A stretch of 64,000 nucleotides of DNA from Marinomonas balearica (GTDB lineage Bacteria > Pseudomonadota > Gammaproteobacteria > Pseudomonadales > Marinomonadaceae): contig NZ_SNXC01000014.1 in NCBI RefSeq assembly GCF_004362145.1, positions 1-64,000 of the forward strand. The letters run 5' to 3'. The translations under genes and the position numbers were made by a program. The notes below the pieces were generated by a model. The model had not been told where the DNA came from and did no database searches. It saw only the letters and a list, made by a program, of their open reading frames with translations. This document shows, in pieces, positions 39,214-63,657 of the stretch. How positions within the stretch are numbered: the stretch's first letter is position 1; every line of letters starts with the position of its first letter.

Positions 39214-41300
39214 ACATGAATCACTCTAGTACTAGTAAAGAACAGCTTATTAAGCGTTTTCATCAGGGCGTAGAGCTATTAAAAGATAACGATCAGGTTT
39301 TTACTGACCGATACATTCGAAATGTCGAAGTTTTCAAAACCTATTTTCCAGATATTTATCAGGTGATGGACGGTTACTCTCCTATCAAGAAATCGGTGTT
39401 TCTTGAGGAAGATGGAGGCCTAAATTTATTTGATACCGAAAACGAGACTGTTTTGTTTACAGATCAGCCATTCTCGATGGTTATTGATAACGTTAAGGCA
39501 CAACTAAAAAAACCTCATCGGACGGAATTAAAGATAGGGAAGGGCTCTAATAAAACCCGTCATGAATTTTATATGGATAAGTTCTCTGCGTATTTGGATA
39601 AATCTTATGATGAGGTTTCCGCACAAGAAAGTATGCCGGAATATGTCCCTTCTATGCTCATGTTTGGCCTCGAATTTGGCTATAACCTTTATTTCCTGTA
39701 CCAAGAAGTAGACATACAGAACTTATACATATATGAGCCGGATTTAGATTTTCTCTATTATTCTTTGTTTACGATAGAGTGGCTGGATATTGTCGAAAAG
39801 GCGAACCAATTAGACGCTAGGATACATTTATCAGTAGGTATTACAGAACAGGAATTTGTCGACAAATATTATCCTTATATATTTAGAAAAGGGCTTTATT
39901 TGGCGCCGGTTACTTACATGTACTTTTCTCTATCATTTAGAGAAATGAAAGATGCCGCAAAAACTTTTTCGGAACAATACGCTCGGCAGGTCTATGGTTG
40001 GGGTTTTTTTGACGATGCGATGATTGGCGTTTCTCAATCGATTGCAGCGCCTTCAAATAAAGAGTTTTTTACATCTCATTATCAACCTAATGATCGCTCT
40101 TTACGTGATATTCCTATTTTTATTGTCGCTAATGGACCGTCACTCGATCAAAATATAGATTTTATTCGTCAACATCGAGACTCGGTAATATTGGTATGTT
40201 GTGGAACAACAATCAATACCTTGCATAGATTAGGTATTAAGCCTGATTTTCATGTTGACGTAGAAAGGATGCGAATTACTGTTGATAAGATTGAGTTAGT
40301 GCCTGAAGAGTTTCGAAAAGGAGTTGCGGCACTTACGGCGAATGTTATTCATCCGGATTTCTATAAGTTATTTGACCGTGTAGGAGTAAGTTTAAAGCCA
40401 GGGGAAGTCGCATCGACTATTATGCAGAAGTTAGCGAAGAGTTCTGATCTCGAGTTACCCTTGCTATTTAATTCCGCTCCGATTGTGGCAAATACCGCAC
40501 TTGCGTACTTTACAATGATGATGTTCAGGAATATCTACCTTATTGGTGTGGATTGTGGTTTCAAGGATAAAGATCATCATCATTCTATTCACAGTGGCTA
40601 TTATAAAGATGGAAAAAATACTCATTTAATACATTACTATCATAGACGCCTTGACGAAGTTGAAGGGAATTTTGGTGGTGTTTTTTATACCGACTTTGTT
40701 TTTGGAAATTCCAAACTTTATTTGGAAACAGCTGTAGCATATGCAAAAAAGACGGACAGAATGTTCCGCTGCTATAACATGTCTGATGGTGTAAAAATTG
40801 AAGGTAGCATCCCTCTTAGGCCAATTGACTACCTCCCTTCTTCCCCCTTAAGGGATAGAAAAAGCATAATTGATAAGATATTTAGTACGCATTTTACTGG
40901 TAGTGAAAGCTTAGGAAGTTTATCAGAAGAGTTTGCTAGAATGGAGAGTGAGCTAGATTCATTATTTGCTTACATGAAGTCTGGTTGGGTGGACAGTGAG
41001 GATTTAAGTCGGGCTGCTGTTATGAGGCGTTTGGCGGAATTTAATGACTCAATAGGCAACTACTACAATACAGACTTCCATGCTATATATGAGTTAGTTA
41101 TAGGTTCGTTCACTTACTTCGCATGTTATATGTCACTATTTCTATATCAAAATGAACATGATTCATCTGTGCTTGAGGATACTCAGGTTATGTATGACCA
41201 TTGGTGTGATTTTGTTGATGAAATGAAAGAAATGTTTCATGACGTCCACGAGTTTATAGACAAAGGTGACAGCGCTTTAATGGCGAAATATAACGCGTAG
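39210..41300 (+). CDS. Maf-type motility accessory factor (DUF115), putative flagellin nonulosonate transferase
   Basis: A 696-residue protein of the Maf/DUF115 family. The central domain (about 300-520) holds PIFIVANGPSLDQNIDFIR, VILVCCGTTINTLHRLGIKPDF and IYLIGVDCGFKD, resembling the sialyltransferase/MptE-like fold, with large all-helical flanks. Maf proteins transfer pseudaminic or legionaminic acid to flagellin Ser/Thr before export. It lies directly upstream of pseI and just after filament chaperone genes, the usual context. Confidence 0.88.
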   Translation: MNMNHSSTSKEQLIKRFHQGVELLKDNDQVFTDRYIRNVEVFKTYFPDIYQVMDGYSPIKKSVFLEEDGGLNLFDTENETVLFTDQPFSMVIDNVKAQLKKPHRTELKIGKGSNKTRHEFYMDKFSAYLDKSYDEVSAQESMPEYVPSMLMFGLEFGYNLYFLYQEVDIQNLYIYEPDLDFLYYSLFTIEWLDIVEKANQLDARIHLSVGITEQEFVDKYYPYIFRKGLYLAPVTYMYFSLSFREMKDAAKTFSEQYARQVYGWGFFDDAMIGVSQSIAAPSNKEFFTSHYQPNDRSLRDIPIFIVANGPSLDQNIDFIRQHRDSVILVCCGTTINTLHRLGIKPDFHVDVERMRITVDKIELVPEEFRKGVAALTANVIHPDFYKLFDRVGVSLKPGEVASTIMQKLAKSSDLELPLLFNSAPIVANTALAYFTMMMFRNIYLIGVDCGFKDKDHHHSIHSGYYKDGKNTHLIHYYHRRLDEVEGNFGGVFYTDFVFGNSKLYLETAVAYAKKTDRMFRCYNMSDGVKIEGSIPLRPIDYLPSSPLRDRKSIIDKIFSTHFTGSESLGSLSEEFARMESELDSLFAYMKSGWVDSEDLSRAAVMRRLAEFNDSIGNYYNTDFHAIYELVIGSFTYFACYMSLFLYQNEHDSSVLEDTQVMYDHWCDFVDEMKEMFHDVHEFIDKGDSALMAKYNA

Positions 41301-41310: not shown

Positions 41311-42336
41311 ATGTTACTAGATATCAAAGGTCCATTTGTAATTGCCGAACTATCCGGTAATCACGGCAAGAGCTTCAATGTTGCGAAGCAGATGATTTAC
41401 GCCGCCTATGAGTCTGGGGTGGACGCAATTAAGCTGCAAACCTATACGCCAGATACAATGACACTTAATGTATCGACAGGTGATTTTCTCATTGGCGAAC
41501 AAGATAGTCTTTGGAAAGGACGAAACCTTTACGATTTGTATGGCGAAGCAGCAACACCTTGGGAGTGGCATAAAGAGCTATTTGATTATGCGAAGTCTCT
41601 TGGTCTTATTGCGTTTAGTTCACCCTTTGACTTGAGCGCAGTCCAGTTTCTAGAAAGCTTGGAGGTACCGTTATATAAAGTCGCTTCATTTGAGCTTACT
41701 GATCTTCCTTTAGTGAGGGCGATTGCTAAAACCGGTAAGCCAACTATTATGTCGACAGGTATGGCTAGTATTGACGACATACAAGATGCGGTAAATGAGT
41801 TTCGTAAATTTAGTGAAGCTAAGCTCACGCTTTTAAAGTGCACTAGTACCTATCCTGCAAGAGTTGAAGATACCAATCTTCTGACTATTCCTGATTTAGC
41901 GAAGCGCTTTGGTTGTGACGTTGGCCTATCTGACCATACTCGTGGTATTGGAGTGTCCGTTGCCTCTATCGCATTAGGGGCAACTGTTATAGAAAAACAT
42001 TTTGTCTTAGATAGAACCGCGGGAGGCGTGGATGCCGAGTTTTCAATGGAGCCCGCCGAAATGAAGTTGCTTGTAGACTCTGTTAAGCAGGCATATTTTG
42101 CGTTGGGCTCTGTTCATTATGGTGGTTCTGAGGCGGAACAAGCGGCTAAAAAGTATCGACGCTCTATCTATATTGCTAAGGATATTAAGGCTGGAATGGA
42201 ACTGACGTCAGATAATATCAGAATCGTACGCCCTTCTTTGGGCCTTGCTCCTAAGCATTGGGACGAAGTGCTTGGGCGCAAAGTGTCTAAAGACCTACAG
42301 GTAGGACAAGCATTGTCGTGGGATCTTCTGGAGTAA
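41311..42336 (+). CDS. pseI: Pseudaminic acid synthase
   Basis: A 341-residue NeuB-family enzyme condensing 6-deoxy-AltdiNAc with phosphoenolpyruvate. It has a TIM-barrel domain with IAELSGNHGKSFNVA, DAIKLQTYTPDTMTL, STGMASIDDIQ and KHFVLDR, and a C-terminal antifreeze-like SAF domain (about 285-341; SIYIAKDIKAGMELT). The LYDLYGEAATPWEWH segment is typical of PseI rather than NeuB or LegI. It overlaps pseG. Confidence 0.92.
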   Translation: MLLDIKGPFVIAELSGNHGKSFNVAKQMIYAAYESGVDAIKLQTYTPDTMTLNVSTGDFLIGEQDSLWKGRNLYDLYGEAATPWEWHKELFDYAKSLGLIAFSSPFDLSAVQFLESLEVPLYKVASFELTDLPLVRAIAKTGKPTIMSTGMASIDDIQDAVNEFRKFSEAKLTLLKCTSTYPARVEDTNLLTIPDLAKRFGCDVGLSDHTRGIGVSVASIALGATVIEKHFVLDRTAGGVDAEFSMEPAEMKLLVDSVKQAYFALGSVHYGGSEAEQAAKKYRRSIYIAKDIKAGMELTSDNIRIVRPSLGLAPKHWDEVLGRKVSKDLQVGQALSWDLLE

Positions 42337-48413: not shown

Positions 48414-49367
48414 ATGGCACCTTATTCATCCATAGAAGCACGGCTCTACGCTTCCATTGCATTGACTCGAAGAGTAGAAGAAATTATTGCGGATATATAT
48501 CCGAGTGACAAAATTAAAAGCCCTGTCCACTTAGCCATTGGGCAAGAATACATTGCATCTTCAGTAATAGACCACTTACGTGAAAGTGATTTCGCTGCTG
48601 GAACATATCGTGGTCATGGTGTCTACCTATCCAAGGGAGGAGATGTGAACGCGCTAATGGCCGAGCTTTATGGAAAGAAAACAGGCTGTGCTAAGGGGCG
48701 AGCTGGGTCGATGCACCTTGTGGATTCCTCTAAAGGCGTTGTTGGAATGTCTGCCGTTGTTGGAACCGGAATCCCTGTTGCTGTAGGGCACGCATTGGCT
48801 ATTAAGCAGCAAGGCAGAGATGATGTCGTTGTTGTATTTATGGGAGATGGTGCAACCGAGGAAGGTTGTTTTAGCGAGAGCATTAACTTTGCTGCCCTAC
48901 AGAAATTACCAATTTTGTTTGTGGTAGAAAATAACCGCTTAGCTATTCACGAACCTCTAACTAAGCGCTGGGCTGCGGACACCTTGACCGAGCGTGTTGC
49001 TACTTATGGCATTCCTGCGAAGAGGTTTAAAGAACCAGATGTCCTTGCTATTCACGCTCATGCAGGAGATCTTATCGATACAATTAGGAAAGGAGCGGGT
49101 CCTGCTTTTATGGAGTGCCATACTCATCGTTGGTTTGAGCACGTTGGCCCAAATGAGGATTACGATCAAGGCTATAGAAGCCTAGAAGAAGGTAAGGAAT
49201 GGCGAGCTAAAGATGTCTACGTCACATTGGGAAAACAACTGTCGAAAGATGAGAAATATCGCATTGATAAAAGCATTGAGGAACAAGTAATGGCGGCAGT
49301 TGAATTTGCCGAAAACAGTTCATTCCCATCGCCAGAGGAGTTGTATGACTATGTCTATGCTAACTAG
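48414..49367 (+). CDS. Thiamine-diphosphate dehydrogenase E1 alpha-like subunit
   Basis: A 317-residue E1 alpha (pyruvate/acetoin dehydrogenase type). The thiamine-diphosphate motif is GDGATEEGCFSESINFAALQ to VVENN, with upstream HLAIGQEYIAS and YRGHGVYLSKG. No E2 or E3 genes accompany it. Pairing with sugar-modifying genes suggests transfer of a two-carbon unit from pyruvate to a keto-sugar, as proposed for AviB1/AviB2 in avilamycin synthesis, rather than central metabolism. It follows a 61-bp gap after the LuxC-like gene. Confidence 0.9.
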   Translation: MAPYSSIEARLYASIALTRRVEEIIADIYPSDKIKSPVHLAIGQEYIASSVIDHLRESDFAAGTYRGHGVYLSKGGDVNALMAELYGKKTGCAKGRAGSMHLVDSSKGVVGMSAVVGTGIPVAVGHALAIKQQGRDDVVVVFMGDGATEEGCFSESINFAALQKLPILFVVENNRLAIHEPLTKRWAADTLTERVATYGIPAKRFKEPDVLAIHAHAGDLIDTIRKGAGPAFMECHTHRWFEHVGPNEDYDQGYRSLEEGKEWRAKDVYVTLGKQLSKDEKYRIDKSIEEQVMAAVEFAENSSFPSPEELYDYVYAN

Positions 49368-50421
49368 TCGTAGCGCACGAGTCTTAAAATATTTCGAGGC
49401 GTTGTCTGAAGGTGCATACCAGGCGATGGAAGAAGACAGTCGAGTTTTTATGATGGGGCTTGATATTGACGATCATAAATCGATCCAAGGCTCTACAAAA
49501 GGCCTATTAGACAAGTTTGGCTCTGAGCGTATTTTTACTACTCCTCTGTCTGAAGATGCTATGACGGGGGTCGCAATTGGTGCCGCGATGGCTGGGCAGA
49601 GGCCTATACATGTACATATTCGCATGGATTTTCTATTGTTATGTATGAATCAATTGGTAAATATTGCGGCTAAGAGCCACTACATGTATGGCGGAACAGT
49701 TCAGGTACCGATGGTAATTCGAACCATGATTGGTAAATCATGGGGGCAAGGAGCGCAGCACTCACAGGGGTTGCATTCTCTGTTCGCACATATCCCTGGA
49801 ATGAAGGTTGTAGCCCCGTCCAATGCATACGATGCGAAAGGGCTTACAATTCAAGCTGTTAGAGACAATAACCCAGTTTTGATTATGGAGCATCGACTGC
49901 TCTATGGAAGTGAAACTGTTGTGCCTGAAGAAGCTTACGCTGTAGAGTTTGGTAAGGCTCGAGTGATGCGAGAGGGCAAAGACCTGACCATTGTTGGCGT
50001 ATCTAATATGGTAAACGAGGCCTACCGTGCTGCTGAATTATTAGCTGAACAAGGGATTGAAGCAGAGGTAATTGATCCTGTTACTATTTCCCCCCTCGAT
50101 TTTGAAACCATTGAAAGATCCGTAAATAAAACAGGTCGTTTGCTCGTAGTAGACAATGCTTGGTTGAATTGCGGCGTATCTGCTGAAATCGTCGCTCGGG
50201 TTGCTGAAAGTGAAATAATAGAGGTGAAGCCCAAAGTTAGGCGGATGGGATTTGCTGAAACAACTTGCCCAACAACGCCAACATTAGAAGATGCTTTTTA
50301 TCCAAATCCTAAAACCATAGCAATGTCTGCATATCGGCTAGCTACAGGAGAAGATGGTTGGATACCTGATAGCAAGCGCTGTGAATTAGCATATCAATCT
50401 CAGTTTAAAGGACCGTTTTAA
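49345..50421 (+). CDS. Thiamine-diphosphate dehydrogenase E1 beta-like subunit
   Basis: A 358-residue E1 beta from the ATG at 49345 (GAGGAG just upstream). The track-length frame starts earlier but inside the alpha gene. It shows LSEDAMTGVAIGAAMAGQRP, HSQGLHSLFAHIPGMKVVAPS and VIDPVTISPLDFETIERSV, the usual transketolase-central plus C-terminal domains. A 23-base overlap with the alpha gene implies a coupled heterotetramer. Confidence 0.9.
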   Translation: MTMSMLTSRSARVLKYFEALSEGAYQAMEEDSRVFMMGLDIDDHKSIQGSTKGLLDKFGSERIFTTPLSEDAMTGVAIGAAMAGQRPIHVHIRMDFLLLCMNQLVNIAAKSHYMYGGTVQVPMVIRTMIGKSWGQGAQHSQGLHSLFAHIPGMKVVAPSNAYDAKGLTIQAVRDNNPVLIMEHRLLYGSETVVPEEAYAVEFGKARVMREGKDLTIVGVSNMVNEAYRAAELLAEQGIEAEVIDPVTISPLDFETIERSVNKTGRLLVVDNAWLNCGVSAEIVARVAESEIIEVKPKVRRMGFAETTCPTTPTLEDAFYPNPKTIAMSAYRLATGEDGWIPDSKRCELAYQSQFKGPF

Positions 50422-51600
50422 ATGTCATACGATTTGGCTGCCCCCTCATGGGGGCAAGAAGAGTTAGATGCTCTACAAACTGTAATGGATTCAGGTTTTT
50501 TTACCATGGGTCCTAAAGTTGCGGAGTTTGAACGTAAGTTCGCCGATTACCATGGAAAAAAGTATGGAATCATGGTGAACTCCGGCTCTTCTGCGAACTT
50601 AATTTCAGTGGCTGCGTTGTTTTTCACCAAAGAAAACCCTTTGCGACAAGGCGATGAGGTATTAGTACCTGCTATTAGTTGGGCTACGACTTATCATCCT
50701 TTGCAGCAGTATGGATTAAAAGTACGTTTTGTCGATGTTGAGTTGGAATCCTTGAATATGGATGTAGCTCAAATTGAACGGGCAATAACACCGAACACTA
50801 AAATGATTCTTGGTGTAAGCATCTTAGGTAACCCCGCAGCGCTTGATGTCATGCGAAGTCTTGCTGATAAGCATGGTCTGTACTTTATGGAAGACAATTG
50901 CGAGTCGATGGATGCAGAGCTGAATGGTAAAAAAGCAGGAACATTTGGTGATTTAAACACTTTTAGCTTTTTCTTTTCTCACCATATCTCGACTATGGAA
51001 GGAGGAATGATTCTTACCGATTCGCAGGAACTGTATGAATTATGTCGTAGCCTCAGAGCACATGGTTGGACTCGAGATTTGCCAGAAGATTCAATATTGT
51101 TCGAGCGTTCGGGCGATGATCTGTTCGAAGCGTATCGTTTTATTCTTCCTGGGTATAATGTTAGGCCGACTGAACTGAATGCAGCAGCAGGGCTTGAGCA
51201 GTTGAAAAAATTGCCTGATTTCACGAAAGCGAGACGTAAGAATCTAAAGTTATTCCAGTCGTTATTTGAACATGATGATCGGTTTATAATCCAAAAAGAG
51301 AATGGCAGCAGTTCGTGTTTTTGCTTCACAATCATCTTGAACCCCGAAAAAAAATTAGATCGAAAAACTATTTTCAAAGCGCTGTCTGACAACAAAATAG
51401 GTTTTAGAATTATCACAGGTGGAAATTTCCTTAGGCATGATGTACTCAAGTACTATGACTACAGTGAGGCTGCGCCTATAGTCAACGCTAATATTGCCCA
51501 TGATTATGGTTTCTTTGTTGGTAATCACCCTTTCGATCTTAGCTCTGAACTAGAGTTGCTATATCAAGTTCTAGATCGCGCAGCACAGGAGAGTATGTAA
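50422..51600 (+). CDS. PLP-dependent sugar 3-dehydratase of the ColD type (DegT/DnrJ/EryC1 family)
   Basis: A 392-residue aspartate-aminotransferase-fold protein. Where sugar aminotransferases have the PLP-binding Lys, this has SHHISTMEGG with H188 by my count, the same substitution as in GDP-4-keto-6-deoxymannose 3-dehydratase ColD. It should therefore remove the C3 hydroxyl rather than transaminate, giving a 3,6-dideoxy-4-keto sugar. Other signatures: NSGSSANLISVAAL, MEDNCESMDAELNGKKAGTFGD, NVRPTELNAAAGLEQLKKL. It adjoins E1 beta with no gap. Confidence 0.87.
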   Translation: MSYDLAAPSWGQEELDALQTVMDSGFFTMGPKVAEFERKFADYHGKKYGIMVNSGSSANLISVAALFFTKENPLRQGDEVLVPAISWATTYHPLQQYGLKVRFVDVELESLNMDVAQIERAITPNTKMILGVSILGNPAALDVMRSLADKHGLYFMEDNCESMDAELNGKKAGTFGDLNTFSFFFSHHISTMEGGMILTDSQELYELCRSLRAHGWTRDLPEDSILFERSGDDLFEAYRFILPGYNVRPTELNAAAGLEQLKKLPDFTKARRKNLKLFQSLFEHDDRFIIQKENGSSSCFCFTIILNPEKKLDRKTIFKALSDNKIGFRIITGGNFLRHDVLKYYDYSEAAPIVNANIAHDYGFFVGNHPFDLSSELELLYQVLDRAAQESM

Positions 51601-52538
51601 TGTCGCAGAATATTTTAATCACAGGTGGTGCGGGGTATCTTGGTTCTATTTTAGTACCTCGACTACTTGAACTTGGACATAAGGTGACTGTGCTTGATAA
51701 TTTTATGTTTGGGCAGGATTCCTTAAATGCAGTGGCGGCGAATCCAAACTTCAAAGTTGAACGCGGAGATTGTCGAAACGAATCAACAATGAAATCATTG
51801 GTAAAAATGGCTGACACGGTTATTCCTCTTGCCGCTTTGGTCGGCGCTCCATTATGCTCCCGTGATGAAATTGGTACAGTAACAACTAATCGCGATGCTG
51901 TTGTGATGCTTACTAAACTGCTAAGTAAGAATCAAAAAATCCTGATGCCTATAACCAACAGTGGTTATGGAATCGGCGAGTCAGGGAAGTTTTGCACCGA
52001 AGAGTCGCCTCTTCGCCCTATTAGTCTATATGGAAGATCCAAAGTAGAAGCGGAAGAAGCGGTACTTGCACATGGATCTGCTATTAGTTTTAGATTGGCG
52101 ACTGTCTTTGGTTTTGCGCCTCGAATGCGACTAGATTTGCTGGTTAACGATTTTGTCTATAGAGCAGTAAAAGATAGAGCATTGGTGTTATTTGAATCCC
52201 ACTTTAAACGCAACTACATTCATATTCGAGATGTAACGAAGGCATTTGTTCACGGACTAGAACACTTCGATAGCATGTCTGGTGAAGCTTACAACGTTGG
52301 ACTATCTGATGCGAATTTGTCTAAGTGGGAGCTTTGTGAGCGAATTCAAAAGCAAGTACCCGGTTTCACTTTTTTAGAGGCACCTATCGGAGAAGATCCA
52401 GACAAGCGTGACTACATTGTTTCGAATGATAAGATCGAAGCAACAGGGTATACGCCTGATCATTCTCTTGACCAAGGAATTGCCGAGTTAATAAAAGGGT
52501 ATACGATGATATCCAACTCTAAGTTTAGTAATGTCTGA
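51600..52538 (+). CDS. NAD-dependent nucleotide-sugar epimerase/dehydratase
   Basis: A 312-residue extended SDR. It has ITGGAGYLGSILVPRLLELG for the cofactor, catalytic YGRSK (SLYGRSKVEAEEAV), TNSGYGIG and RNYIHIRDVTKAF. It probably epimerises or reduces the sugar produced by the ColD-like enzyme. Start overlaps the preceding stop (TAATG); its end overlaps the next gene by eight bases. Confidence 0.85.
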   Translation: MSQNILITGGAGYLGSILVPRLLELGHKVTVLDNFMFGQDSLNAVAANPNFKVERGDCRNESTMKSLVKMADTVIPLAALVGAPLCSRDEIGTVTTNRDAVVMLTKLLSKNQKILMPITNSGYGIGESGKFCTEESPLRPISLYGRSKVEAEEAVLAHGSAISFRLATVFGFAPRMRLDLLVNDFVYRAVKDRALVLFESHFKRNYIHIRDVTKAFVHGLEHFDSMSGEAYNVGLSDANLSKWELCERIQKQVPGFTFLEAPIGEDPDKRDYIVSNDKIEATGYTPDHSLDQGIAELIKGYTMISNSKFSNV

Positions 52539-53472
52539 TTTTTTTGACTTGGCTGGAAAGCGTGTTTACGTAGCTGGCCATACAGGGTTAGTGGGTGGAG
52601 CGCTTATCAAAGCGCTCAAGACGTACGATATTGAGCTTATTCTTGCATCGAAACAGGAATTGGATCTTCGGGAGCAAAATCGTACTCGAGAGTTTATTTT
52701 TGATAATAGGCCAGATGTTGTTTTATTGGCAGCTGCTAAAGTTGGAGGAATTGAGGCAAATCGGACTCAGCCTGTCGATTTTTTGTACGACAATATTATG
52801 ATTGCGACTAATGTTATCAAGGCTTCGGCGGATGCAGGTGTGGAACGCTTAATGAATCTCGCCTCAAATTGTTATTATCCACGTAATGCAACGCAGCCGA
52901 TCCTAGAAGAAAGTTTGTTGACCGGTCCTTTTGAACCGACAAATGAAGCTTATGCGACAGCAAAACTAGCCGCAATGCGTCTTACACAATACTATGCGTC
53001 TCAATTCGGTAAGTCCTTTTTTACCTTGGTGCCGACTAGTTTGTATGGCCCTGGTGATCATTTTGATGATGCCCGCGGACATGTCATACCTGCTCTCATA
53101 AATCGGTTTCACAAAGCGAAGGAAAGTAATACTCCAACAGTTACACTCTGGGGATCTGGTGCACCAACACGGGAGTTTTTGTTTGTGGATGATGCTGTCA
53201 AAGGAATGTTATTTTTCCTCCAAAATTACTTTGAAAAAGAAGCGATCAATCTTGCTGGAGGGAAATCTGTTTCTATTCGAGAGCTTGGAGAAAGCATCTC
53301 ATCGATCGTAGGATATGCTGGAGAGTTAGTGTGGGATACGTCTAAACCTGATGGCATGCCGCATAAATCTCTAGATAGTGAACGATGTTTTTCTTATCGC
53401 TGGCGTCCTGAAACGTCATTAGTTAATGGATTGAAAGAAACCTATCGATATTATCTTAAACATGCTGACTAA
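52531..53472 (+). CDS. GDP-L-fucose synthase-like reductase/epimerase
   Basis: A 313-residue Fcl/WcaG-family extended SDR. It shows VAGHTGLVGGALIKAL, LLAAAKVGGIEANRTQP, LASNCYYPRNATQPILEESLLTGP and the catalytic YATAKLAAMRL. The closest known reaction is 3,5-epimerisation and 4-reduction of GDP-4-keto-6-deoxymannose. With ColD-like chemistry next to it, it could act in a colitose- or yersiniose-like route. No gmd gene is present in the window. Confidence 0.87.
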   Translation: MSDFFDLAGKRVYVAGHTGLVGGALIKALKTYDIELILASKQELDLREQNRTREFIFDNRPDVVLLAAAKVGGIEANRTQPVDFLYDNIMIATNVIKASADAGVERLMNLASNCYYPRNATQPILEESLLTGPFEPTNEAYATAKLAAMRLTQYYASQFGKSFFTLVPTSLYGPGDHFDDARGHVIPALINRFHKAKESNTPTVTLWGSGAPTREFLFVDDAVKGMLFFLQNYFEKEAINLAGGKSVSIRELGESISSIVGYAGELVWDTSKPDGMPHKSLDSERCFSYRWRPETSLVNGLKETYRYYLKHAD

Positions 53473-54781
53473 ACCTAGAACATTTTTTGCTATTCATCGC
53501 TTCGAGTCAAAGTCTTATGAAGACTCAGCAGGGAAAATAGAAATACGAGAGCCTATGGTTCAATCAGGGCGACTTGGAGAACATGAAACATTTCATTTTG
53601 GCTGGGATGAGATAGATTGTCTTGATTTAATAAATCAATCTATTAAAGTCGCAAAGGCTCAAGCAGGCAATGCTCCAGTTGTTATTTATGGCGCAGGAGC
53701 TCATACGACTCAGCACTGGTATCTTTTCTCATCGCTCAATATTGTTGCTGTCGCAGATAAAAATGAGTCGCTTTGGGGAAGTTTTTTAAAAGAAAAGCCA
53801 GTTATAAGCCCTAAACAAATTTCGGATTATTCGAATCATGTTGTGATCTCTAGTAGAGCATATGAAGAAAATATTCGAGATGAATTGCTGAAAGCTTATC
53901 CTACTCTGACTCTTTTCCAGTTGTATGGCAATGACTATATGGAGAAGCGTTTGGTGCTTTGGGCAAATACATTGCGCGAAAAGGTACTGCGGTTTCAGCC
54001 TGATTTGCTTGTTCATACGCCTACGCACGTTAGAGAGAACTTGCCATCGCAATTCTTTCTTGAGTTGAAACAGCAAGTTCCAAATATGAAAATCCTAACA
54101 GTATGGTGGGATTATGATGAAACGAATATTGAAGCTGGTTATCTTGAATACGAGCGTCAGGTATTAGAGTACGCTGATTTAGTAATAGAAAACTCTAATG
54201 GTACGCGATTAGAACGCATGCATAGAAATGAAGCACCTTACTGTTCGCACCTAAATTCTGAAAAGGTTATTTTTCACCCTAGCTGGTTTGATCCTAGTTT
54301 GTTTTATAATAGTGGTGAAGAAAGAGACATTGATATTGCACTTTTTGGCAGTCGAGTTGGAGAAAGAGGAAGGTGGATTGACTTTCTTGAGGACACGTAT
54401 GGAGATAGGTTTAGGCATATTGGTGGAGTTTCAGGAGAGCATCGTAATCCAATTCCTATATCTGAATACGCGGCTTTGCTAAGGCGTACCAAGGTAGTAG
54501 TAAACACGCAAACTTACTCTTTTCGAAGTCAATGTAAAGGGAAGGTTCGGGAAACACTGCAGTGTGGCGCCATCCTTATGGAGGAGGAAAATAGCGAGAC
54601 ACCATTAGCATTTCCAAATGATGATTCTATCCTATACTTCGATAGTTTTGAGGGGCTTAGGGATAAGATCGACACCTTAATTGAGCATTATTCGAAATAC
54701 AAGCAGCCTCGCAATGAGATTAATTGGGTCGCATGGACTGAATATCTACTAGAAAACCTGTTTGGAAGTGAGAATTTATGA
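53462..54781 (+). CDS. Two-domain glycosyltransferase (Rossmann-like N-terminal domain plus CgeB-like GT)
   Basis: A 439-residue protein. Residues about 65-160 form a small Rossmann-like domain (APVVIYGAGAHTTQHWYL, NIVAVADKNESLWG, HVVISSRAYEENIRDEL). The C-terminal half is a CgeB/glyco_trans_1_2-like glycosyltransferase, with DIDIALFGSRVGERGRW and KGKVRETLQCGAILMEEE. The first domain recurs in spirit at the C-terminus of the two large sulfotransferase-like proteins. It probably attaches the sugar made by the upstream genes. Confidence 0.75.
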   Translation: MLTKPRTFFAIHRFESKSYEDSAGKIEIREPMVQSGRLGEHETFHFGWDEIDCLDLINQSIKVAKAQAGNAPVVIYGAGAHTTQHWYLFSSLNIVAVADKNESLWGSFLKEKPVISPKQISDYSNHVVISSRAYEENIRDELLKAYPTLTLFQLYGNDYMEKRLVLWANTLREKVLRFQPDLLVHTPTHVRENLPSQFFLELKQQVPNMKILTVWWDYDETNIEAGYLEYERQVLEYADLVIENSNGTRLERMHRNEAPYCSHLNSEKVIFHPSWFDPSLFYNSGEERDIDIALFGSRVGERGRWIDFLEDTYGDRFRHIGGVSGEHRNPIPISEYAALLRRTKVVVNTQTYSFRSQCKGKVRETLQCGAILMEEENSETPLAFPNDDSILYFDSFEGLRDKIDTLIEHYSKYKQPRNEINWVAWTEYLLENLFGSENL

Positions 54782-55737
54782 TGTCAAAAGAAACACTAAT
54801 GGTTCGTTTTCCGAACTTCTTTAGACAGTGCAACTTTCACTGTCCATATTGTACTGCCGATGTTGGGGCTGACAATATTCGTTATAAGTGGCCTTATAGA
54901 GATAATCATAGAAAAATTTTAGAAAATCTTTTGAAGCTCGATAAAATGTTAAATATCCGTTTAGGTCCTGCTGGTGAGTTTTTTGTTAGTAAAGATTTAG
55001 TGGAGGATGCTCGATGGTTGACACAACAGAGCAACGTAGAAGCAGTAAATCTAATAACGAATATGGGCTTTACAGAGAAACAATATAGTAAATTTTTCGA
55101 AGGCTTTAATCTTGATAAGGTTGCACTAACAGTTTCATATCACCCTACTGAAATAAAAGATACAGACGTTTGGAAAAAAACGATACTTACATTAGCTGAG
55201 AAAATGCCTGTATCTATTGTGCTTGTTGCTTATCCTCCGTTGGTGCATATGTTGCCAATGATCCATGAAGAGTTAAAAGAATTAAATATTCCTATATCGG
55301 TTAATGGTTTTATTGGTAGCTTTCAAGGTGAAGTATACCCTTATGCTTATACTGAAAAACAAAAAGAATTCTTAAAAGATATTAGCTTTTCTAGACATGA
55401 ATATGAATTCTGGATTAATGGAATAAAGCCAGGCTTATGCAATGCCGGATATAAGTCAATATTCATTGATATAAAAGATGGAAAGGTCTATTCGTGTGGA
55501 ATGCCAAAGAATATTTCACTTGGAGAGCTATTAGATGGACCAAATATAGATCTATTAGACGGGCCTTTACCTTGTATGAATAGTAAGTGCATGTGCGATT
55601 CAGAAAATTATAATCCGGTCGTGTTTGATGAATACTATGACCGTACTGGAATTGCATTGCGACAATATGAATACAAATTCAAAGAAATAGCGATGGAAAA
55701 CCCACTTATGGATGAATGGAATATAGCTTATTGGTAG
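54778..55737 (+). CDS. Radical SAM protein with a SPASM-like C-terminus
   Basis: A 319-residue radical SAM enzyme. The 4Fe-4S motif is CNFHCPYC (C18, C22, C25; CX3CX2C). C-terminal cysteines in GLCNAGYKSIFIDIKDGK to YSCGMPK and in PCMNSKCMC suggest one or two auxiliary clusters of SPASM/twitch type. Substrate unknown; in this setting a sugar or glycan epimerisation, dehydration or C-C bond step is plausible. ATG overlaps the upstream stop (ATGA). Confidence 0.82.
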   Translation: MMSKETLMVRFPNFFRQCNFHCPYCTADVGADNIRYKWPYRDNHRKILENLLKLDKMLNIRLGPAGEFFVSKDLVEDARWLTQQSNVEAVNLITNMGFTEKQYSKFFEGFNLDKVALTVSYHPTEIKDTDVWKKTILTLAEKMPVSIVLVAYPPLVHMLPMIHEELKELNIPISVNGFIGSFQGEVYPYAYTEKQKEFLKDISFSRHEYEFWINGIKPGLCNAGYKSIFIDIKDGKVYSCGMPKNISLGELLDGPNIDLLDGPLPCMNSKCMCDSENYNPVVFDEYYDRTGIALRQYEYKFKEIAMENPLMDEWNIAYW

Positions 55738-56869: not shown

Positions 56870-57751
56870 TTAGTCAAAATAATCGTACTGAAACGTTAGG
56901 TCTGGCAGCGCATATCCAAGTGTTTTTAAAAAAACGTATAGTTCTTTAGACATCACAGAAGTAAATCCTTCTTTTTGCCAGTCGTGCCAAGATTCGAAGG
57001 AGTGATCTAAGTGCGAAGATGTACTCTTATGTTGATTGATCGCACCAGAATCAATAAGAGGTCGCATATCTTCAGTTGAGTACTTTAAACCAGTGATGTC
57101 TTCACAGGTTTGTATAGCGTACATGATATCAGTGGTCATTTTCTCCATTTGAATCGTGCGCATCAACGGACCGTATCGTCTTAAGTCTTGGGCTAGATTA
57201 AACAAAGTATAACAGCTAGTGAAAAATGCTTTTTGTTCTATACTGTGTTTATCAAACCACTCCAGTTCTAACACGTGTGGGAACCTTGAACAAAATAACT
57301 CGAAAAATGTAGAATAATGAGTGCTTAACTCTGGAACTGCTTCTGCTTGAATCACACCACTCATATGGCTTTTTATAAACTGGAAGGGGTTCCGAACTAG
57401 GTGAAAAACCTTAGGTGATATAGCGTTGAAGTCCTCCTTATAATAGAGTTCACGCGGTACAAAGGTATGTACGTTGCCGAAAACTGCTTTACTAGGAAAG
57501 CTTCGTTCGTATATAGCATAGAGCTCAGACAGTGACAGTTTTTTTAACTCAAGGTTTGTTCTTCCTCTTGTTAGAGGGTCCAATCTTTCGCCTGAAATTC
57601 CACGTGTTCTTTCCGCTTCAAAACAGCCTTCAATTACGGAATCTATTTCGTATGTTCCGTGGGCAACGAATACATCGCTATGAGTAGACAGCGCAAAAGC
57701 GAGCCATCTGCTTGCGGAATATCCATAACTAACAACGCTAAATCGATTCAT
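56870..57751 (-). CDS. Small sulfotransferase-like protein C2
   Basis: A 293-residue P-loop protein, last gene of the minus-strand operon. The 5'-phosphosulfate-type loop is SYGYSASRWLAFAL (about residues 8-21); the 3'-phosphate-type segment is VFHLVRNPFQFIKSH. It is paralogous to C1 (60203-61081): both share VAHGTYxxDSVxxGxxE, LTRGR/VTRGR, HSFVLHELY/HTFVPRELY, the ITGLxYS segment and GAxNxHxxxSS near the end. ATG 57751 has GAGG six bases upstream and overlaps the A2 stop; ATG 57763 is four codons longer. Sulfonate acceptor unknown. Confidence 0.72.
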   Translation of the reverse strand: MNRFSVVSYGYSASRWLAFALSTHSDVFVAHGTYEIDSVIEGCFEAERTRGISGERLDPLTRGRTNLELKKLSLSELYAIYERSFPSKAVFGNVHTFVPRELYYKEDFNAISPKVFHLVRNPFQFIKSHMSGVIQAEAVPELSTHYSTFFELFCSRFPHVLELEWFDKHSIEQKAFFTSCYTLFNLAQDLRRYGPLMRTIQMEKMTTDIMYAIQTCEDITGLKYSTEDMRPLIDSGAINQHKSTSSHLDHSFESWHDWQKEGFTSVMSKELYVFLKTLGYALPDLTFQYDYFD

Positions 57752-59294
57752 GATGTACCTCATTCCAAATGAGCTGCTTTATAAAGTGGTTTCTTTTTGC
57801 AAAAGAGATCATGCTTTCTATCGTCGCTTCATGAGTCGGTATCGCAAACACTTTTCCATCAAACGAGGCTAACTCTTGTGATGTGTGGATTTTTTTGTTC
57901 TTAAGAATTAAACCAGCCTCCAATTGGTCATAAAGCTGGACATTTTCTGCTTCAAGTATACCTCTAGGAAGTGCTCGTTGCAGGTTTTCGAAATCATACG
58001 AGATTCCCCAGAGCGCAATAGAGGCATGCTCTTTGAGGTTTGAGACAAGTTTTTCGATAAATTCAGAGGTGTGTTCGTTTTGATTGCTCATATTATTGTT
58101 GTTCAGCTTTTTGAAGGCGTGATCAATAAGGTCTGAACTCGATGAGGTTAGTTCTACGAATAAGCTGTCGTCATTAAAGGTTGCGCGCTCTATTTTGCTG
58201 TTTTTTTGCCATGTTCCCGTATAAAACTTGTACTTTGATACATCTATATTCGATTTGTTGAATGCAAAAGTCGCGAGCATTTCATCTCTGACGACTAAAG
58301 GTGCTCCGTTACGAATACTTTTTGAGATGATTTTCTGTTTTTCGTTATAGTCGCTTTCGCGAAAGTGCTCTATTTTTTGGTATCCAAGTTCGTCGAGTAT
58401 GTGATTAAAGCCGTATGACTTAAAAAGCTCAAGATGTTCGTTAACGAGATTATGTTTCCAGTCCCCAATCACGCCTTTATTGACCCTAAAATTATGTCGA
58501 TGATAAAGAAAGGTGTTCTTGTGGTCCATCGATTTCCATATAGATGCTTTTTGTTCTAGTGTAAGCAGAACACCAAGATACTCACAGATACCAGAAATAG
58601 TCATTATTGGATCTGTAATAAGCTGTTCCCAATGGACACAATAATAATTTTCTTTTATATCGAGAAATTCATCCCAATACTTTTTTTGATGCGATATTAA
58701 CCCTTCACACAGTTTTAAGTCAGAGAATTTAGACAGAGATATTGATAATCGAATACTCTCTTCATCTCCTAAATGCTGGTTACTTTGAATGTACTCGCTG
58801 CTTAAGGCGTTAATGGAATGATTCGCAGAATTAAATATGTCTAAAGGATTTCGAATGCTAGCGAAGTGGAAGTGATTTTTACTTAGATTTAAAAGGGTCC
58901 TCGGATATTCGTGAGAATGTAACGTATCGCTACGATAGGCGAGAACAGAGGGAACTTTGTGTGTAATGAGGATATCGCCTTTCCCCATAATTCCAATATA
59001 CTTTCGGACAAAGTAATTTCCCTCGCTGTCGAACCACTGAGGACCTCCGTTGATGCTTCTAAACTCACCGTTTATGATGATATCTTTTTCATCATATCCG
59101 GATTTGGAAAGTGCATCGAGGTAGCAATTATAAAGATTTAAATCGTTATCATTGAGAATGTTTTGTGCGGCTTGTCGCTCTTCGCAATCATTTAGTGAGC
59201 CAGAAATTAGTTTGATTTTATGAATGATAGAATTAAGCAGGGCGTAGCCAGATCTCGGCTGTCCAGACAGGATAATACGTTGCTCTATGCTCAT
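57738..59294 (-). CDS. Large sulfotransferase-like protein A2 with a C-terminal Rossmann-like domain
   Basis: A 518-residue protein. The N-terminal ~300 residues are a P-loop sulfotransferase fold: LSGQPRSGYALLNSI (P13-R14) and FASIRNPLDIFNSANHSINA (R148-N149-P150), followed by VHWEQLITDP. A C-terminal domain (about 420-515; IALWGISYDFENLQRAL, KVFAIPTHEATIESM) resembles small nucleotide-binding Rossmann modules. It is a paralogue of A1 along its length. It begins within the stop of B2 (ATGA). Confidence 0.75.
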   Translation of the reverse strand: MSIEQRIILSGQPRSGYALLNSIIHKIKLISGSLNDCEERQAAQNILNDNDLNLYNCYLDALSKSGYDEKDIIINGEFRSINGGPQWFDSEGNYFVRKYIGIMGKGDILITHKVPSVLAYRSDTLHSHEYPRTLLNLSKNHFHFASIRNPLDIFNSANHSINALSSEYIQSNQHLGDEESIRLSISLSKFSDLKLCEGLISHQKKYWDEFLDIKENYYCVHWEQLITDPIMTISGICEYLGVLLTLEQKASIWKSMDHKNTFLYHRHNFRVNKGVIGDWKHNLVNEHLELFKSYGFNHILDELGYQKIEHFRESDYNEKQKIISKSIRNGAPLVVRDEMLATFAFNKSNIDVSKYKFYTGTWQKNSKIERATFNDDSLFVELTSSSSDLIDHAFKKLNNNNMSNQNEHTSEFIEKLVSNLKEHASIALWGISYDFENLQRALPRGILEAENVQLYDQLEAGLILKNKKIHTSQELASFDGKVFAIPTHEATIESMISFAKRNHFIKQLIWNEVHHESI

Positions 59295-60199
59295 AAACCG
59301 CTACCTTCTATGATTCTTTGAACTTCCGTCAACATTGAAAATGCGGACTGATAGCCAATGCTTAGCGCTTTAGCTCTTTCGTTATAATTGCCTTTTTCGT
59401 ATTCTTCTACGCAATAATCAATAAAGTTGCCTGAAGCGGTTAAGGTGAAGTCCTGTATATCCGCTCTGATATCTGTTTGTTCACTTACGAGCAATGACTC
59501 ATTAATTAAATGGTAAAAAAAACGCGATTGAGATGGATAGGGCCATTCACGAAATTGTTTTAAATTTAGGCAGATTTTAGCGCGCGAGATCAAATCATTT
59601 CTATGGAATGGAGCCGTTAAAGCATGCACTGACTCGACATAAAATCCACGTTCCTTTAATTCATTTATGATCGTAGTTCGGTACTCTGTCTTTGCTCCAG
59701 TGAAGAGGAAATCAATATTCTTTTGCTCATCACTTCTATGTATAACTTGCTTAAAATTAGGTACATAATAATGCGGGAAATAAAGCACTGGAATAGAAAG
59801 ATTGTCTTCATAGTCTGATTTAGCAACATCACTAAAATGCCATATTGCACTGGCGTATTGACACGCGTCTAAAAAATTATTGTACCTTTCAGACCAGTAT
59901 TCACTATCGAAGTAGTAGGAACTGCCATCTTGAAAAGAAAAGTTGTTGAACGTATTTTTCGTCAAGAACTCAGTACCGACTATGATAAGCCTTCCATCAT
60001 TTTTGACTAAATGATCAATTTTTCTCACATATTCAGCGTCAAAATTCTCAATTACTACATTAACGTGACCGGGACAAAGCTCTTTCTCAATATCCGCAAT
60101 ATGCCCTGCTAACTCCAAAGCACTTTTAATTAGCAAAAAGGTATCGCCTACATTGATACCGAAATTCCAGTGATTACCGTATATGAGCTTGAAGTGCAT
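59291..60199 (-). CDS. CgeB-like glycosyltransferase B2
   Basis: A 302-residue GT-B-like protein and a paralogue of B1. Shared blocks: EFLTKNTFNNFS, YWSERYNNFLDACQ, PVLYFPHYYVPN, DFLFTGAKTEYRTTI, LISRAKICLNLKQFREWP and SRFFYHLINESLLVSE. The last two correspond to the donor-binding half of CgeB/glyco_trans_1_2 proteins. It lies between a C and an A gene in the minus-strand operon, with a 3-base gap and an ATGA overlap. Confidence 0.65.
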   Translation of the reverse strand: MHFKLIYGNHWNFGINVGDTFLLIKSALELAGHIADIEKELCPGHVNVVIENFDAEYVRKIDHLVKNDGRLIIVGTEFLTKNTFNNFSFQDGSSYYFDSEYWSERYNNFLDACQYASAIWHFSDVAKSDYEDNLSIPVLYFPHYYVPNFKQVIHRSDEQKNIDFLFTGAKTEYRTTIINELKERGFYVESVHALTAPFHRNDLISRAKICLNLKQFREWPYPSQSRFFYHLINESLLVSEQTDIRADIQDFTLTASGNFIDYCVEEYEKGNYNERAKALSIGYQSAFSMLTEVQRIIEGSGL

Positions 60200-60202
60200 T
60201 TT

Positions 60203-61081
60203 CTATCCTAAAAAATCTAGGTTGTATCCATTCTTTTTATAAATACATAAATCACTTTCATCTAAAATATGATGAAATATATCTTTCTGTAGTTTAGTCC
60301 AGTTTGTGTAGGTATCTTCTGCCTTACTACTGGCTTTTCTTCTATGAGAGTTGAGAGCGCCTCCAGAGATAAAGCTTTCCAGTGACTGATAAGAATATTG
60401 AAGTCCCGTAATCATTTCACAATATTTCTTAAGGTATTCAATATCCGATGTCATCTCCTCCATAAGAATGTTGTCAATGACTCCCTCAAAGTTGTGTAGG
60501 TCTTGCTGTTGTCGTTTTATGGTATAACAGCTTAAAACATGTCCTCGGTGTTCCATGTTATTACTATCAAAGTCTGGAAACTGCTCTGGAAAGGACTCGA
60601 ACTCTTCTAAAAATTGCTTCTCAAAAAATGAGGAGTAATGATTGTGTAGTTCTTCTGCAAATAAATGGGCGTCAGTGACGAGTTTCGTATGAGATGCAAT
60701 ATAGTTGATAGGGTTTCGGATCAAATTAAAAACAGTCAAATCCATTTCATGGATCTCGGGCTTATTGTAGAGTTCATGTAAAACAAAGCTATGAACGCAT
60801 CCATAGTTTTCGAAGCCCGGGAACTCTGTTTTAAAGTGTTCATATAGTTCTTTTAGAGGCGTTGTCTTTATAAAGCGCTCAGCTTCTCTTCCTCGTGTAA
60901 CCGCATCTTTGTTTATTGGGGCGCTTAGCAGAGCTTTTTCGCTCTCGTAAGAGCCGTTTACGACCGAGTCTAGTGGATAGCTTCCATGGGCTACAAATGT
61001 GCGTTTGTTCGAAGCTAGTACAAAACTAAGCCATCGAGTTGCGGCAGGCCCATTAGCAGTAACACAATAATTTTTTTTCAC
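60203..61081 (-). CDS. Small sulfotransferase-like protein C1
   Basis: A 292-residue paralogue of C2. P-loop-like TANGPAATRWLSFVLASN, VFNLIRNPINYIASH and MEEMTSDIEYLKKYCEMITG are visible. It belongs to the same unassigned sulfotransferase-like branch. Codons and lengths are similar to C2, so the pair looks like an old duplication within the operon. Confidence 0.7.
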   Translation of the reverse strand: MKKNYCVTANGPAATRWLSFVLASNKRTFVAHGSYPLDSVVNGSYESEKALLSAPINKDAVTRGREAERFIKTTPLKELYEHFKTEFPGFENYGCVHSFVLHELYNKPEIHEMDLTVFNLIRNPINYIASHTKLVTDAHLFAEELHNHYSSFFEKQFLEEFESFPEQFPDFDSNNMEHRGHVLSCYTIKRQQQDLHNFEGVIDNILMEEMTSDIEYLKKYCEMITGLQYSYQSLESFISGGALNSHRRKASSKAEDTYTNWTKLQKDIFHHILDESDLCIYKKNGYNLDFLG

Positions 61082-61097
61082 GAAATACTCCTAAAAC

Positions 61098-62018
61098 TTA
61101 GACCTTCAAAAAAGATAAAATGTCATTTATATAATGAGTAACTGGCATGTTTTGAGCGAAGTTACGATGTTGATTCAATGCTACTTCGTTGTATAGGTCA
61201 TCCTCAATAAGTTCAATGACACTTGCACATAACTCTTCGCGATCTTTTTCAATGATAAAGTTTGATAGATCGCACTTTACTGGCGTTGTTTCCGATATGA
61301 TGCAAGATTGATTTGTAAGGTGAAAATGCAATCTTGAGTTTGAAGGGTGTTTCCAACTCTCTTTCTGCTTTAAATTTAATGCGACTTTAGAACGTCTGGT
61401 CAGGTCTTCCCTTAAGTAGGCTGGTGTTGTTGTATCACACTTAGTTATTGAAAGTCCGCTTTGCTCCAATTCTTGTAGTATATCTAGCCTATATTGGGTA
61501 AGTACGCCCGTAAAAACAACGTCATAGTCTTTTTTGACCAAAGATGGGAACGGCATTTGGAGCGATGGTAAATAAGTGTGAGGAAAGTACATAACAGGCA
61601 CATCGGGAAAAGCCTGTTGATAAATATCAACCTGATGCTCGGATAAATGAAACAGCCCGCGACAATGTTGAAGAATGCGTAGAAAACTCTCGTAACGCTC
61701 TTTCCAGTAGCTAGGTATTTCATAATGGCTTTTATTCGCCTCTGAATTTGAGAATTGATTAAATGAATTTTCGGTTAAGAACTCAGTCGCAATTAGGTAA
61801 ATGTGTGTCGAACGATCATTACATTTGCTTTCTAGCTCTTCTACATTTTCACTATTAAAACCTTCGACCAATATATTGGTTCGCCCTATGACAACTTCTG
61901 TACTTAGGCAGGTCGAGATCCCCGCTTGTAGCAAAGTATGTTGTACTAAAAAGTAGCACTCGGGAATTCGGTTGTTTCGAAAGTGCTGCCCGTATACTAA
62001 GTAAACTAAGTGATCCAT
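61098..62018 (-). CDS. CgeB-like glycosyltransferase B1
   Basis: A 306-residue paralogue of B2. It has EFLTENSFNQFSNSE, YWKERYESFLRILQ, PVMYFPHTYLPS, DVVFTGVLTQYRLDI, RRSKVALNLKQKESWKHPS and HFHLTNQSCIISETTPV. The second half fits the CgeB/GT1_2 donor domain; the first half is specific to this family. It starts one base after the A1 stop region and precedes C1 by 16 bases. Confidence 0.65.
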   Translation of the reverse strand: MDHLVYLVYGQHFRNNRIPECYFLVQHTLLQAGISTCLSTEVVIGRTNILVEGFNSENVEELESKCNDRSTHIYLIATEFLTENSFNQFSNSEANKSHYEIPSYWKERYESFLRILQHCRGLFHLSEHQVDIYQQAFPDVPVMYFPHTYLPSLQMPFPSLVKKDYDVVFTGVLTQYRLDILQELEQSGLSITKCDTTTPAYLREDLTRRSKVALNLKQKESWKHPSNSRLHFHLTNQSCIISETTPVKCDLSNFIIEKDREELCASVIELIEDDLYNEVALNQHRNFAQNMPVTHYINDILSFLKV

Positions 62019-62019
62019 A

Positions 62020-63657
62020 TTAAACTGCGCTTATATCTAAAAATTTAATTTTAATGTGGCGGCAATATTGTTTGATTGATTGGCGTGTTTCGTAGCTAAG
62101 TGCCATTGGTATTACGATTGTTTCTTTCTGGCTCGTAATATCATCAGGAGACAAGACCGTTTTATTGAACTTCTGTTGTCCCTTTAATCTACGATCTACC
62201 AAGTTAATGTTAGCCTTGCTGAGGATATGTAACGTGTTTGGGTTTCGTTCTATCCAACTGTCAAAATCAGTTCCGATTCCCCAAAGTGTAATATTTATAT
62301 CTGGGTTGTTCTTTAGAAAGTTTTCTAGTCGAGAGAAGGTGTTCTTATGTGTGCCTAACGCGACGTTAAGAAAGGCTGTGACATCATTTTCGGGATAATG
62401 AGTGCGAAGCAGTTGCTCTAGATGCGCGTCAGAGTCTAACGATTGAATTTTGTTTATCATCGAGCAAAGTAAGTCATTTTTTTCTGCTGCAAAGGTTTGA
62501 AACTCTCTTAATATAGGTTCATCTTCTAAATCACTGCGCTCAATTGATACTCTTCCTCGCTCTGGAAAGGACGTAAATGAGAATTCAGATGCGTCGATAT
62601 TGGATTTATTAAATGCGAATCCAGCTAAGTTCTTATCCTTGATTTCATATGGTTTACCACTGTCCCAATAATGTTGAATTTGTTTTTGGTACTCATTTTG
62701 CCGTTCTGGCACGCAAGGGAAGTCATATCCTAGTCTAGAGAATAGCTCTCCTCCGCCTAGTTCTTCAAAGAGCTTAATATGCTGAGGGATGATGCTGTTC
62801 TTCCAATCTCCAACAACGCCTTTGTTGATGCGAAAATTGTGCTGGTGATGAGAGAGTAAGTTCTTATGGTCTCTAGGCTTCCAAATATCTTCCGCTTCCT
62901 GAGCCGATACTTCTTGATTAATTAAGGAGCCGATATATTGTATCGTCGATATTGGGTCTAATATTAAGTCTTCCCACCTATAGTGCTTGAAGAATTGGGC
63001 CACAGTGAAGTAACGATTCCAATAATCAATTTGATATTTTATTAGGCCACGGCAAACCTTGGGGTCGGACAATTTACTTAAACCAATTTCTTGACGTATT
63101 GCTTCCTCATTTACATCAGTCATAAATCGGCTAATGTATTCGCTTGTAAGGGCATTAATGGAATGTGCAGCCGAGTTAAACACGTCGATTGGATTTCTGT
63201 AAGAGGTCAACCAATTACGCTGTCGCTCCCCATATGTAGATACCCAAGACTCAGGAGATTTTGTCGAATGCATAATAGGGTAATAGTCGAATAGTGCTTT
63301 TGGATATCGAACAGCGAGAAGAAAATCTCCTTTGTCTTTAATACCAAAGTACTTCCTAACAAAAATATCATCTGGATAGTCTGGGTTAACCCATTTAGGG
63401 CCACCAACAATGAGTTGAAATTCACCATTAAATAGTAGTGATTCCTGCATGTTATATCGACTAAAAAAGCTCACATACTCTCTATTGAGTTGCTGACTCA
63501 AAAACGGTAAGACTTTGTTCAGCCTTGTTTGTGCTACATCATGCGCGACAGGAATATTTTTCAGACGATGAATTTCATTTAGAATAGACAGCATCAGCGA
63601 AAAGCCTGTCCGCTGAAGGCTAACAACTACCGAAGAAGTACTGGCATTCTCGATCAT
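62020..63657 (-). CDS. Large sulfotransferase-like protein A1 with a C-terminal Rossmann-like domain
   Basis: A 545-residue paralogue of A2 and first gene of the minus-strand operon. The sulfotransferase part shows VVSLQRTGFSLMLSIL (R16-T17-G18) and LTSYRNPIDVFNSAAHSINA (R154-N155-P156). It has GEFQLIVGGPKWV and VRKYFGIKDKGD in common with A2. The C-terminal domain (about 445-540; ITLWGIGTDFDSWIERN) is the same module as in A2. Sulfotransferase folds use PAPS as donor; the acceptor is presumably a glycan given the interleaved glycosyltransferases. The ribosome site is weak. Confidence 0.75.
   Translation of the reverse strand: MIENASTSSVVVSLQRTGFSLMLSILNEIHRLKNIPVAHDVAQTRLNKVLPFLSQQLNREYVSFFSRYNMQESLLFNGEFQLIVGGPKWVNPDYPDDIFVRKYFGIKDKGDFLLAVRYPKALFDYYPIMHSTKSPESWVSTYGERQRNWLTSYRNPIDVFNSAAHSINALTSEYISRFMTDVNEEAIRQEIGLSKLSDPKVCRGLIKYQIDYWNRYFTVAQFFKHYRWEDLILDPISTIQYIGSLINQEVSAQEAEDIWKPRDHKNLLSHHQHNFRINKGVVGDWKNSIIPQHIKLFEELGGGELFSRLGYDFPCVPERQNEYQKQIQHYWDSGKPYEIKDKNLAGFAFNKSNIDASEFSFTSFPERGRVSIERSDLEDEPILREFQTFAAEKNDLLCSMINKIQSLDSDAHLEQLLRTHYPENDVTAFLNVALGTHKNTFSRLENFLKNNPDINITLWGIGTDFDSWIERNPNTLHILSKANINLVDRRLKGQQKFNKTVLSPDDITSQKETIVIPMALSYETRQSIKQYCRHIKIKFLDISAV

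Follow-up and report, generated by a model that had tools for sequence, protein, structure and literature searches.

Glycosylation islands that carry Maf and pseudaminic acid (Pse) genes together with flagellin are known from Campylobacter. Here we analyse six adjacent genes in a stretch of the 3.88 Mb genome of Marinomonas balearica, bases 1-64000 of contig NZ_SNXC01000014.1 (64,000 nucleotides, hereafter the window), which lie in an island of this kind and which may encode enzymes that both extend and sulfate a flagellar glycan. Islands for flagellin glycans are already known, and so are sulfated capsules. In Halobacterium salinarum two different sulfotransferases, Agl30 and Agl31, act on two sugars of an N-glycan that is also carried by the motility filament (PMC11980604). 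For polysaccharides, genes for 3'-phosphoadenosine-5'-phosphosulfate (PAPS) and for sulfotransferases in one cluster are described as a hallmark of sulfation (PMC11641403). Bacterial flagellin glycosylation has been studied in Shewanella, and the stem "sulf" occurs 0 times in that paper (PMC3765264). Among the open-access papers listed, we recognised no example of a sulfated bacterial flagellin from titles and the openings of abstracts.

The six open reading frames are all encoded on the minus strand in the order A1-B1-C1-B2-A2-C2. We interpret the operon as two paralogous modules for extension and sulfation of the flagellar glycan, each made up of one glycosyltransferase (B) and two PAPS-dependent sulfotransferases (A and C), and assign this interpretation a probability of roughly 0.6. 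In the first set, A1 (62020-63657, 545 amino acids) is a large sulfotransferase with a C-terminal extension, recognised by PF00685 and an R-x7-S motif, B1 (61098-62018, 306 amino acids) is a probable CgeB-like glycosyltransferase by profile comparison with PF13524-type proteins, and C1 (60203-61081, 292 amino acids, GTG start) is a small sulfotransferase-like protein that has R-x7-S and is a homologue of C2. The second set comprises B2 (59291-60199, 302 amino acids), assigned as for B1 and from sub-threshold PF13524 matches in its orthologues, the large sulfotransferase A2 (57738-59294, 518 amino acids), assigned by PF00685 and the family profile, and the small sulfotransferase-like C2 (56870-57763, 297 amino acids), assigned by its predicted fold and R-x7-S. 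Gaps of 1, 16 and 3 bases separate A1/B1, B1/C1 and C1/B2; B2 and A2 overlap by 4 bases, and A2 and C2 by 26, or by 14 if an internal ATG of C2 is the true start.

Identity between the sets is 32% for A1 and A2, 31% for B1 and B2, and 37% for C1 and C2. The original prediction for this DNA had described six genes of three families in this order, and its coordinates and gene order agree with ours; its statement that the genes are joined by gaps or overlaps of 1-16 bases holds for four junctions, whereas the A2/C2 overlap is wider. Set 1 occurs in this genome and in M. atlantica (G058), where the order of all six genes is the same, and set 2 occurs in both and also alone, as a B-A-C trio, in M. 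gallaica (G060) and M. piezotolerans (G019), so the arrangement is not due to chance. A membrane-helix-like stretch is absent from the six proteins (largest 19-residue hydropathy mean 1.32), which suits assembly of a glycan on flagellin in the cytoplasm.

Both A proteins pass the curated cut-off of PF00685 (22 bits), with scores of 32.3 for A1 and 35.3 for A2, and a profile of nine A proteins matches the solved sulfotransferases 7d1x (E 2.6e-6) and 7eov (E 3.2e-6). A1 has an orthologue of 55% identity in M. atlantica. The sequence R-[NE]-P with a serine eight residues past the arginine (R-x7-S), which we take to be the 3'-phosphate-binding motif of PAPS-dependent sulfotransferases, was found in all 12 of the A and C proteins scanned from Marinomonas and is retained in the A proteins of Competibacteraceae. 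The C-terminal domain of A (residues about 400-518 in A2, 57738-59294) is largely absent from the Competibacteraceae proteins; it weakly resembles the N-terminal domain of the neighbouring glycosyltransferase (profile probability 29, E 5.9e-4).

The AlphaFold model of C2 has a mean predicted local distance difference test score (pLDDT) of 83.9 and a predicted template modelling score of 0.83. Its 19 best Foldseek matches are sulfotransferases, Teg14 among them, and the sulfotransferase domain from curacin synthesis comes first (E 1.2e-4). When a profile of the C family was compared with solved sequences the lone match was to a splicing factor at E 0.037, which we took to be due to chance. The R-x7-S motif and the predicted fold support the assignment of C as a putative sulfotransferase.

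Neither B1 nor B2 has a Pfam match over any cut-off, and none of the 12 proteins or domains of the B family reached the PF13524 cut-off (25). B2 orthologues match PF13524 below threshold at the expected place, with 13.2 bits in G058 and 13.6 bits in G019, and hhalign comparison of a 12-member B profile with PF13524-type glycosyltransferases gave a probability of 95.7 (E 8.8e-9), with four controls (A, C, PseB and another domain) at 0.4 or less. The alignment covers the PF13524 region of the neighbouring CgeB-like glycosyltransferase (53462-54781, plus strand; 43.8 bits, cut-off 25). Against solved sequences the B profile gave nothing below E 0.25. These comparisons support B proteins as probable kin of the PF13524 (CgeB-like) glycosyltransferases. 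The interpretation in the original prediction is supported, on different evidence for each family: profile search bore out A as a sulfotransferase, B as CgeB-like gained from the profile comparison and the sub-threshold matches in two relatives, and C kept its motif and predicted fold but did not reach the Pfam cut-off.

PAPS would be supplied from the same locus. The original prediction had named a lack of PAPS synthesis in the genome as a reason to reject it. This objection fails, since we found an APS (adenosine-5'-phosphosulfate) kinase, the single match in the genome, encoded 6.6 kb beyond A1 in the island, which places a PAPS gene and sulfotransferases in one cluster. It overlaps pseB by 8 bases, ahead of pseC and pseF, and it adjoins pseB also in G058, G060, G016 and G003. 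In G019 (L009:4726-5579) pseB consists of two short frames and seems broken, beside an intact-looking APS kinase. The G003 island (L155:9803-11745) carries a CysQ equivalog and a 354-amino-acid PF00685 protein near APS kinase-pseB-pseC-pseF; CysQ removes 3'-phosphoadenosine-5'-phosphate. A presumed ATP sulfurylase small subunit, called CysD by length only, is on another contig, and a PF01507 match in a frame of ~300 amino acids, taken for CysD, is present in 48 of 48 genomes of the genus.

Across these 48 Marinomonas genomes a strong APS kinase match (>190 bits) occurs in 15 and a PF00685 match (E<=0.001) in 19. Both occur together in 13 genomes, PF00685 alone in 6, the kinase alone in 2 and neither in 27 (Fisher p=1.0e-5). 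When the four A-B-C genomes are removed the counts are 9, 6, 2 and 27 (p=2.8e-4); if five PF00685 proteins of ~705-722 amino acids are dropped they become 13, 1, 2 and 32 (p=7e-9), a split that was chosen post hoc. Those longer frames occur in G061, G066, G002, G025 and G027, genomes without a strong APS kinase. Matches of ~20-22 bits were left uncounted (24 genomes have those alone, mostly in frames of ~460-490 amino acids), and 9 genomes have no APS kinase match of any strength. In 9 of the 15 kinase genomes the kinase and a PF00685 gene are at most 12 kb apart.

The surroundings of the operon bear on which glycan is modified. The window holds, on the plus strand, two flagellins as proposed glycan carriers (34414-35232 and 35719-36534; PF00669 and PF00700 over cut-off), the Maf flagellin glycosyltransferase (39210-41300; PF20157 and PF01973 over cut-off), the pseudaminic acid synthase PseI (41311-42336; TIGR03586 487.7 bits, cut-off 340) and, by Pfam, sugar-making genes for an E1 pair, a DegT aminotransferase and two epimerases (48414-53472), with FlaG, FliD and FliS also encoded upstream. 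Past the end of the window lie genes for a B12-type radical S-adenosylmethionine (SAM) protein, a nucleotidyltransferase resembling HddC and a kinase resembling HddA (these matches are below NCBIfam cut-offs). They are followed on the minus strand by APS kinase, PseB, PseC and PseF, each of which passes its cut-off. Maf, the flagellins, PseI, PseB, PseC and PseF, each over cut-off, are thus found together, as in a Maf/Pse island. Radical SAM proteins flank the operon on both sides, one STM4011-like (54778-55737, below cut-off) and the other the B12-type protein (L007:693-2207).

The operon could instead serve another sulfated surface glycan, such as an O-antigen or capsule, made via the same sugar pathway. 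Marine Vibrio and Cobetia are known to have sulfated capsules whose clusters include PAPS genes (PMC11641403, PMC11766843), and by eye no flagellar genes were seen in the Competibacteraceae stretches around C-A-...-B (L084-L086), for which no library scan was made. Against this stand the flagellins, Maf, FliD and FliS in the same island, and the scan of island proteins (31430-56828 of the window by Pfam, in which two proteins had no family, and seven proteins beyond the window by NCBIfam) contained no flippase, polymerase or capsule transporter. A PF00669 match was present in 11 of the 11 carrier genomes tested, a family to which the hook protein FlgL belongs as well; the only match in G436 (83.8 bits, 420-amino-acid frame) may be FlgL. 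In five Marinomonas the distance between flagellin genes and A-B-C genes is 19-23 kb (measured from B alone in G016), and in G101 a PF00669 match is on the contig of A, about 21 kb off. Gene position suggests flagellin as the putative target. We regard another surface glycan as unlikely.

If the operon does encode two modules for a flagellar glycan, the following scheme can be proposed, in which the use of PAPS, the sugar acceptor, the linkage, the sequence of reactions and the role of flagellin as carrier are all putative. Maf would put a pseudaminic-type sugar on flagellin in the cytoplasm, and B1 and B2 would each add a further sugar unit, perhaps from a nucleoside diphosphate sugar whose synthesis would fall to the island's HddA/HddC-like, E1, DegT and epimerase genes. 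A and C would then each sulfate a different position on these sugars, drawing on PAPS from the island's own APS kinase, and the units built by the two sets would differ from each other.

Several observations weigh against this scheme. C2 scores 21.3 bits against PF00685, 0.7 under the cut-off of 22, C1 has no PF00685 match in the Pfam search, and C2 is the only one of nine C proteins with a match at E<=0.1. Query-normalised TM-scores of the C2 Foldseek matches are low (0.33-0.46) and two matches reach E<=0.001, both of them sulfotransferases, so the likeness of C2 to sulfotransferases is one of fold-level kinship only. Profile comparisons found no similarity of C to A, and in 3 of 3 Competibacteraceae C proteins the serine of the motif is a cysteine. 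A histidine placed by eye, at what we take to be the position of the catalytic histidine of cytosolic sulfotransferases, is present in A2 and absent from A1. For B, the profile probability falls to 12.6 with smaller alignments of fewer sequences, and the B2 model has a mean pLDDT of 61.7 and no Foldseek match at E<=0.001, with glycosyltransferases among several of its top matches. The Fisher tests ignore the relatedness of the genomes, and six genomes of the genus have PF00685 without the kinase. Outside the genus a strong APS kinase is found in 4 of 7 A carriers and the other three have no convincing one: G271 (99% complete) and G101 (86%) have A, with PF01583 matches of 22.7 and 21.6 bits over ~50 positions (cut-off 21.1) that we attribute to other P-loop proteins; the third, G437, is a metagenome-assembled genome (MAG) of 2.6 Mb that has C-A-B and no PF01583 match. 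The CysH of this genome scores closer to PAPS reductase than to APS reductase, below every cut-off, so the APS kinase could also serve sulfate assimilation.

The three A carriers lacking a convincing kinase, the score of CysH and the position of C below the Pfam cut-off would be expected if A and C have the sulfotransferase fold and one or both are non-catalytic or do not use PAPS, with the kinase serving assimilation or another sulfotransferase. The Fe-S cysteines of APS reductases were seen by eye in 7 of 11 CysH proteins, from 11 chosen genomes; the CysH of this genome and of G010, G009 and G013 is a 206-residue type without them. However, APS kinase matches of any strength are lacking in G009 and G013, whose CysH is of the same type, so the kinase seems dispensable for assimilation in the genus. 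The association of kinase and PF00685 across the genus and the conservation of R-x7-S in the Marinomonas A and C proteins also speak against this explanation, which we consider improbable; PAPS is presumably used by both A and C. The many tyrosylprotein sulfotransferases among the top C2 matches would fit sulfation of a protein, at a flagellin tyrosine, by one of the sulfotransferases. We consider this very improbable: the curacin enzyme is the first match and NDST1 and SULT enzymes are listed too, so that the fold gives no substrate, and the glycosyltransferase paired in each set points to a sugar.

Related genes also occur beyond this genome. Protein searches of the 48 genus genomes found B in 5 and C in 4. 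In G019 and G060 a 249-amino-acid sulfotransferase-like protein and a 376-amino-acid protein replace set 1 (L008:17134-19010 and L026:4799-6675); the former matches PF13469 below cut-off (L008 copy) and the latter has no Pfam match. In the class, A was found at E<=0.001 in 13 of 369 genomes including this one; four of the remaining matches are strong (E at most 1.5e-91), whereas the other eight are weak and were left uncounted as A. C was found in 1 of the 369 (this genome only), and an earlier sample of relatives had A in 2 of 56. Three Candidatus Competibacteraceae MAGs (L084-L086) have C-A followed ~1.7 kb on by B fused to a second domain, and the epimerase between A and B is 62-64% identical to that at 51600-52538 of the window. 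At L100 and L103, two of the four other class loci with A, it adjoins homologues of the kinase, E1 pair, DegT, nucleotidyltransferase and both epimerases; L101 has A and the 51600 epimerase on the same stretch, L102 has A and B with weaker sugar-gene matches, and L103 has B too. Thus A, B and parts of the sugar pathway travel together, and C is rarer.

In a tree of A proteins A1 clusters with those of Competibacteraceae (92/91), apart from A2, a grouping absent from the trees of B and C. Recent tandem duplication is rejected on this grouping, on the 31-37% identity and on both sets being present in M. atlantica; the identity, that presence and the occurrence of set 2 alone elsewhere indicate an old pair of modules. 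The original prediction was right in describing two A-B-C sets, which are old and diverged and not freshly duplicated, and the gene arrangement it did not recognise is not unique, given B-A-C in other Marinomonas and C-A-...-B in Competibacteraceae. A mobile origin was also considered; there was no match for C2 in 72,556 plasmid records nor for A1 in 50,697 phage records, the two proteins searched.

Taken more broadly, we lean slightly towards the view that some marine bacteria carry sulfated flagella, with a dedicated PAPS supply, modules that can be repeated and that pair one glycosyltransferase with two sulfotransferases, a strongly anionic flagellin glycan convergent with the sulfated archaellum by way of unrelated enzymes, and in C a new sulfotransferase family. 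Variation in the sugars of flagellin glycans is known. If true, sulfate on a bacterial flagellin would be a new filament chemistry, as far as we could find, and would allow a test of why marine and halophilic swimmers charge their filaments, be it for salt tolerance, bundling or phage escape. The B-A-C unit would be a compact toolkit for extending and sulfating sugars, with C an uncharted family of small sulfotransferases.

Compared with CgeB-like (PF13524) enzymes, the B profile aligns, yet no B member passes the family cut-off. The island is like the Shewanella sfmABCDE locus, in which flagellins, Maf, Pse-type enzymes and accessory sugar genes go with O-glycosylation of flagellin (PMC3765264), but the Marinomonas island adds the six sulfotransferase and glycosyltransferase genes and the APS kinase. 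The capsule clusters of Vibrio sp. KMM 8419 and Cobetia marina KMM 1449 likewise combine glycosyltransferases, sulfotransferases and PAPS genes, and that of Cobetia has CysQ, as the G003 island does; however, these are capsules with ATP-binding cassette export and not Maf/flagellin islands (PMC11641403, PMC11766843). With Halobacterium salinarum the Marinomonas locus shares a filament-decorating glycan, suggested on the Marinomonas side by genes alone, and two kinds of sulfotransferase, but the Halobacterium glycan (PMC11980604) is an archaeal N-glycan that is sulfated by enzymes of another superfamily.

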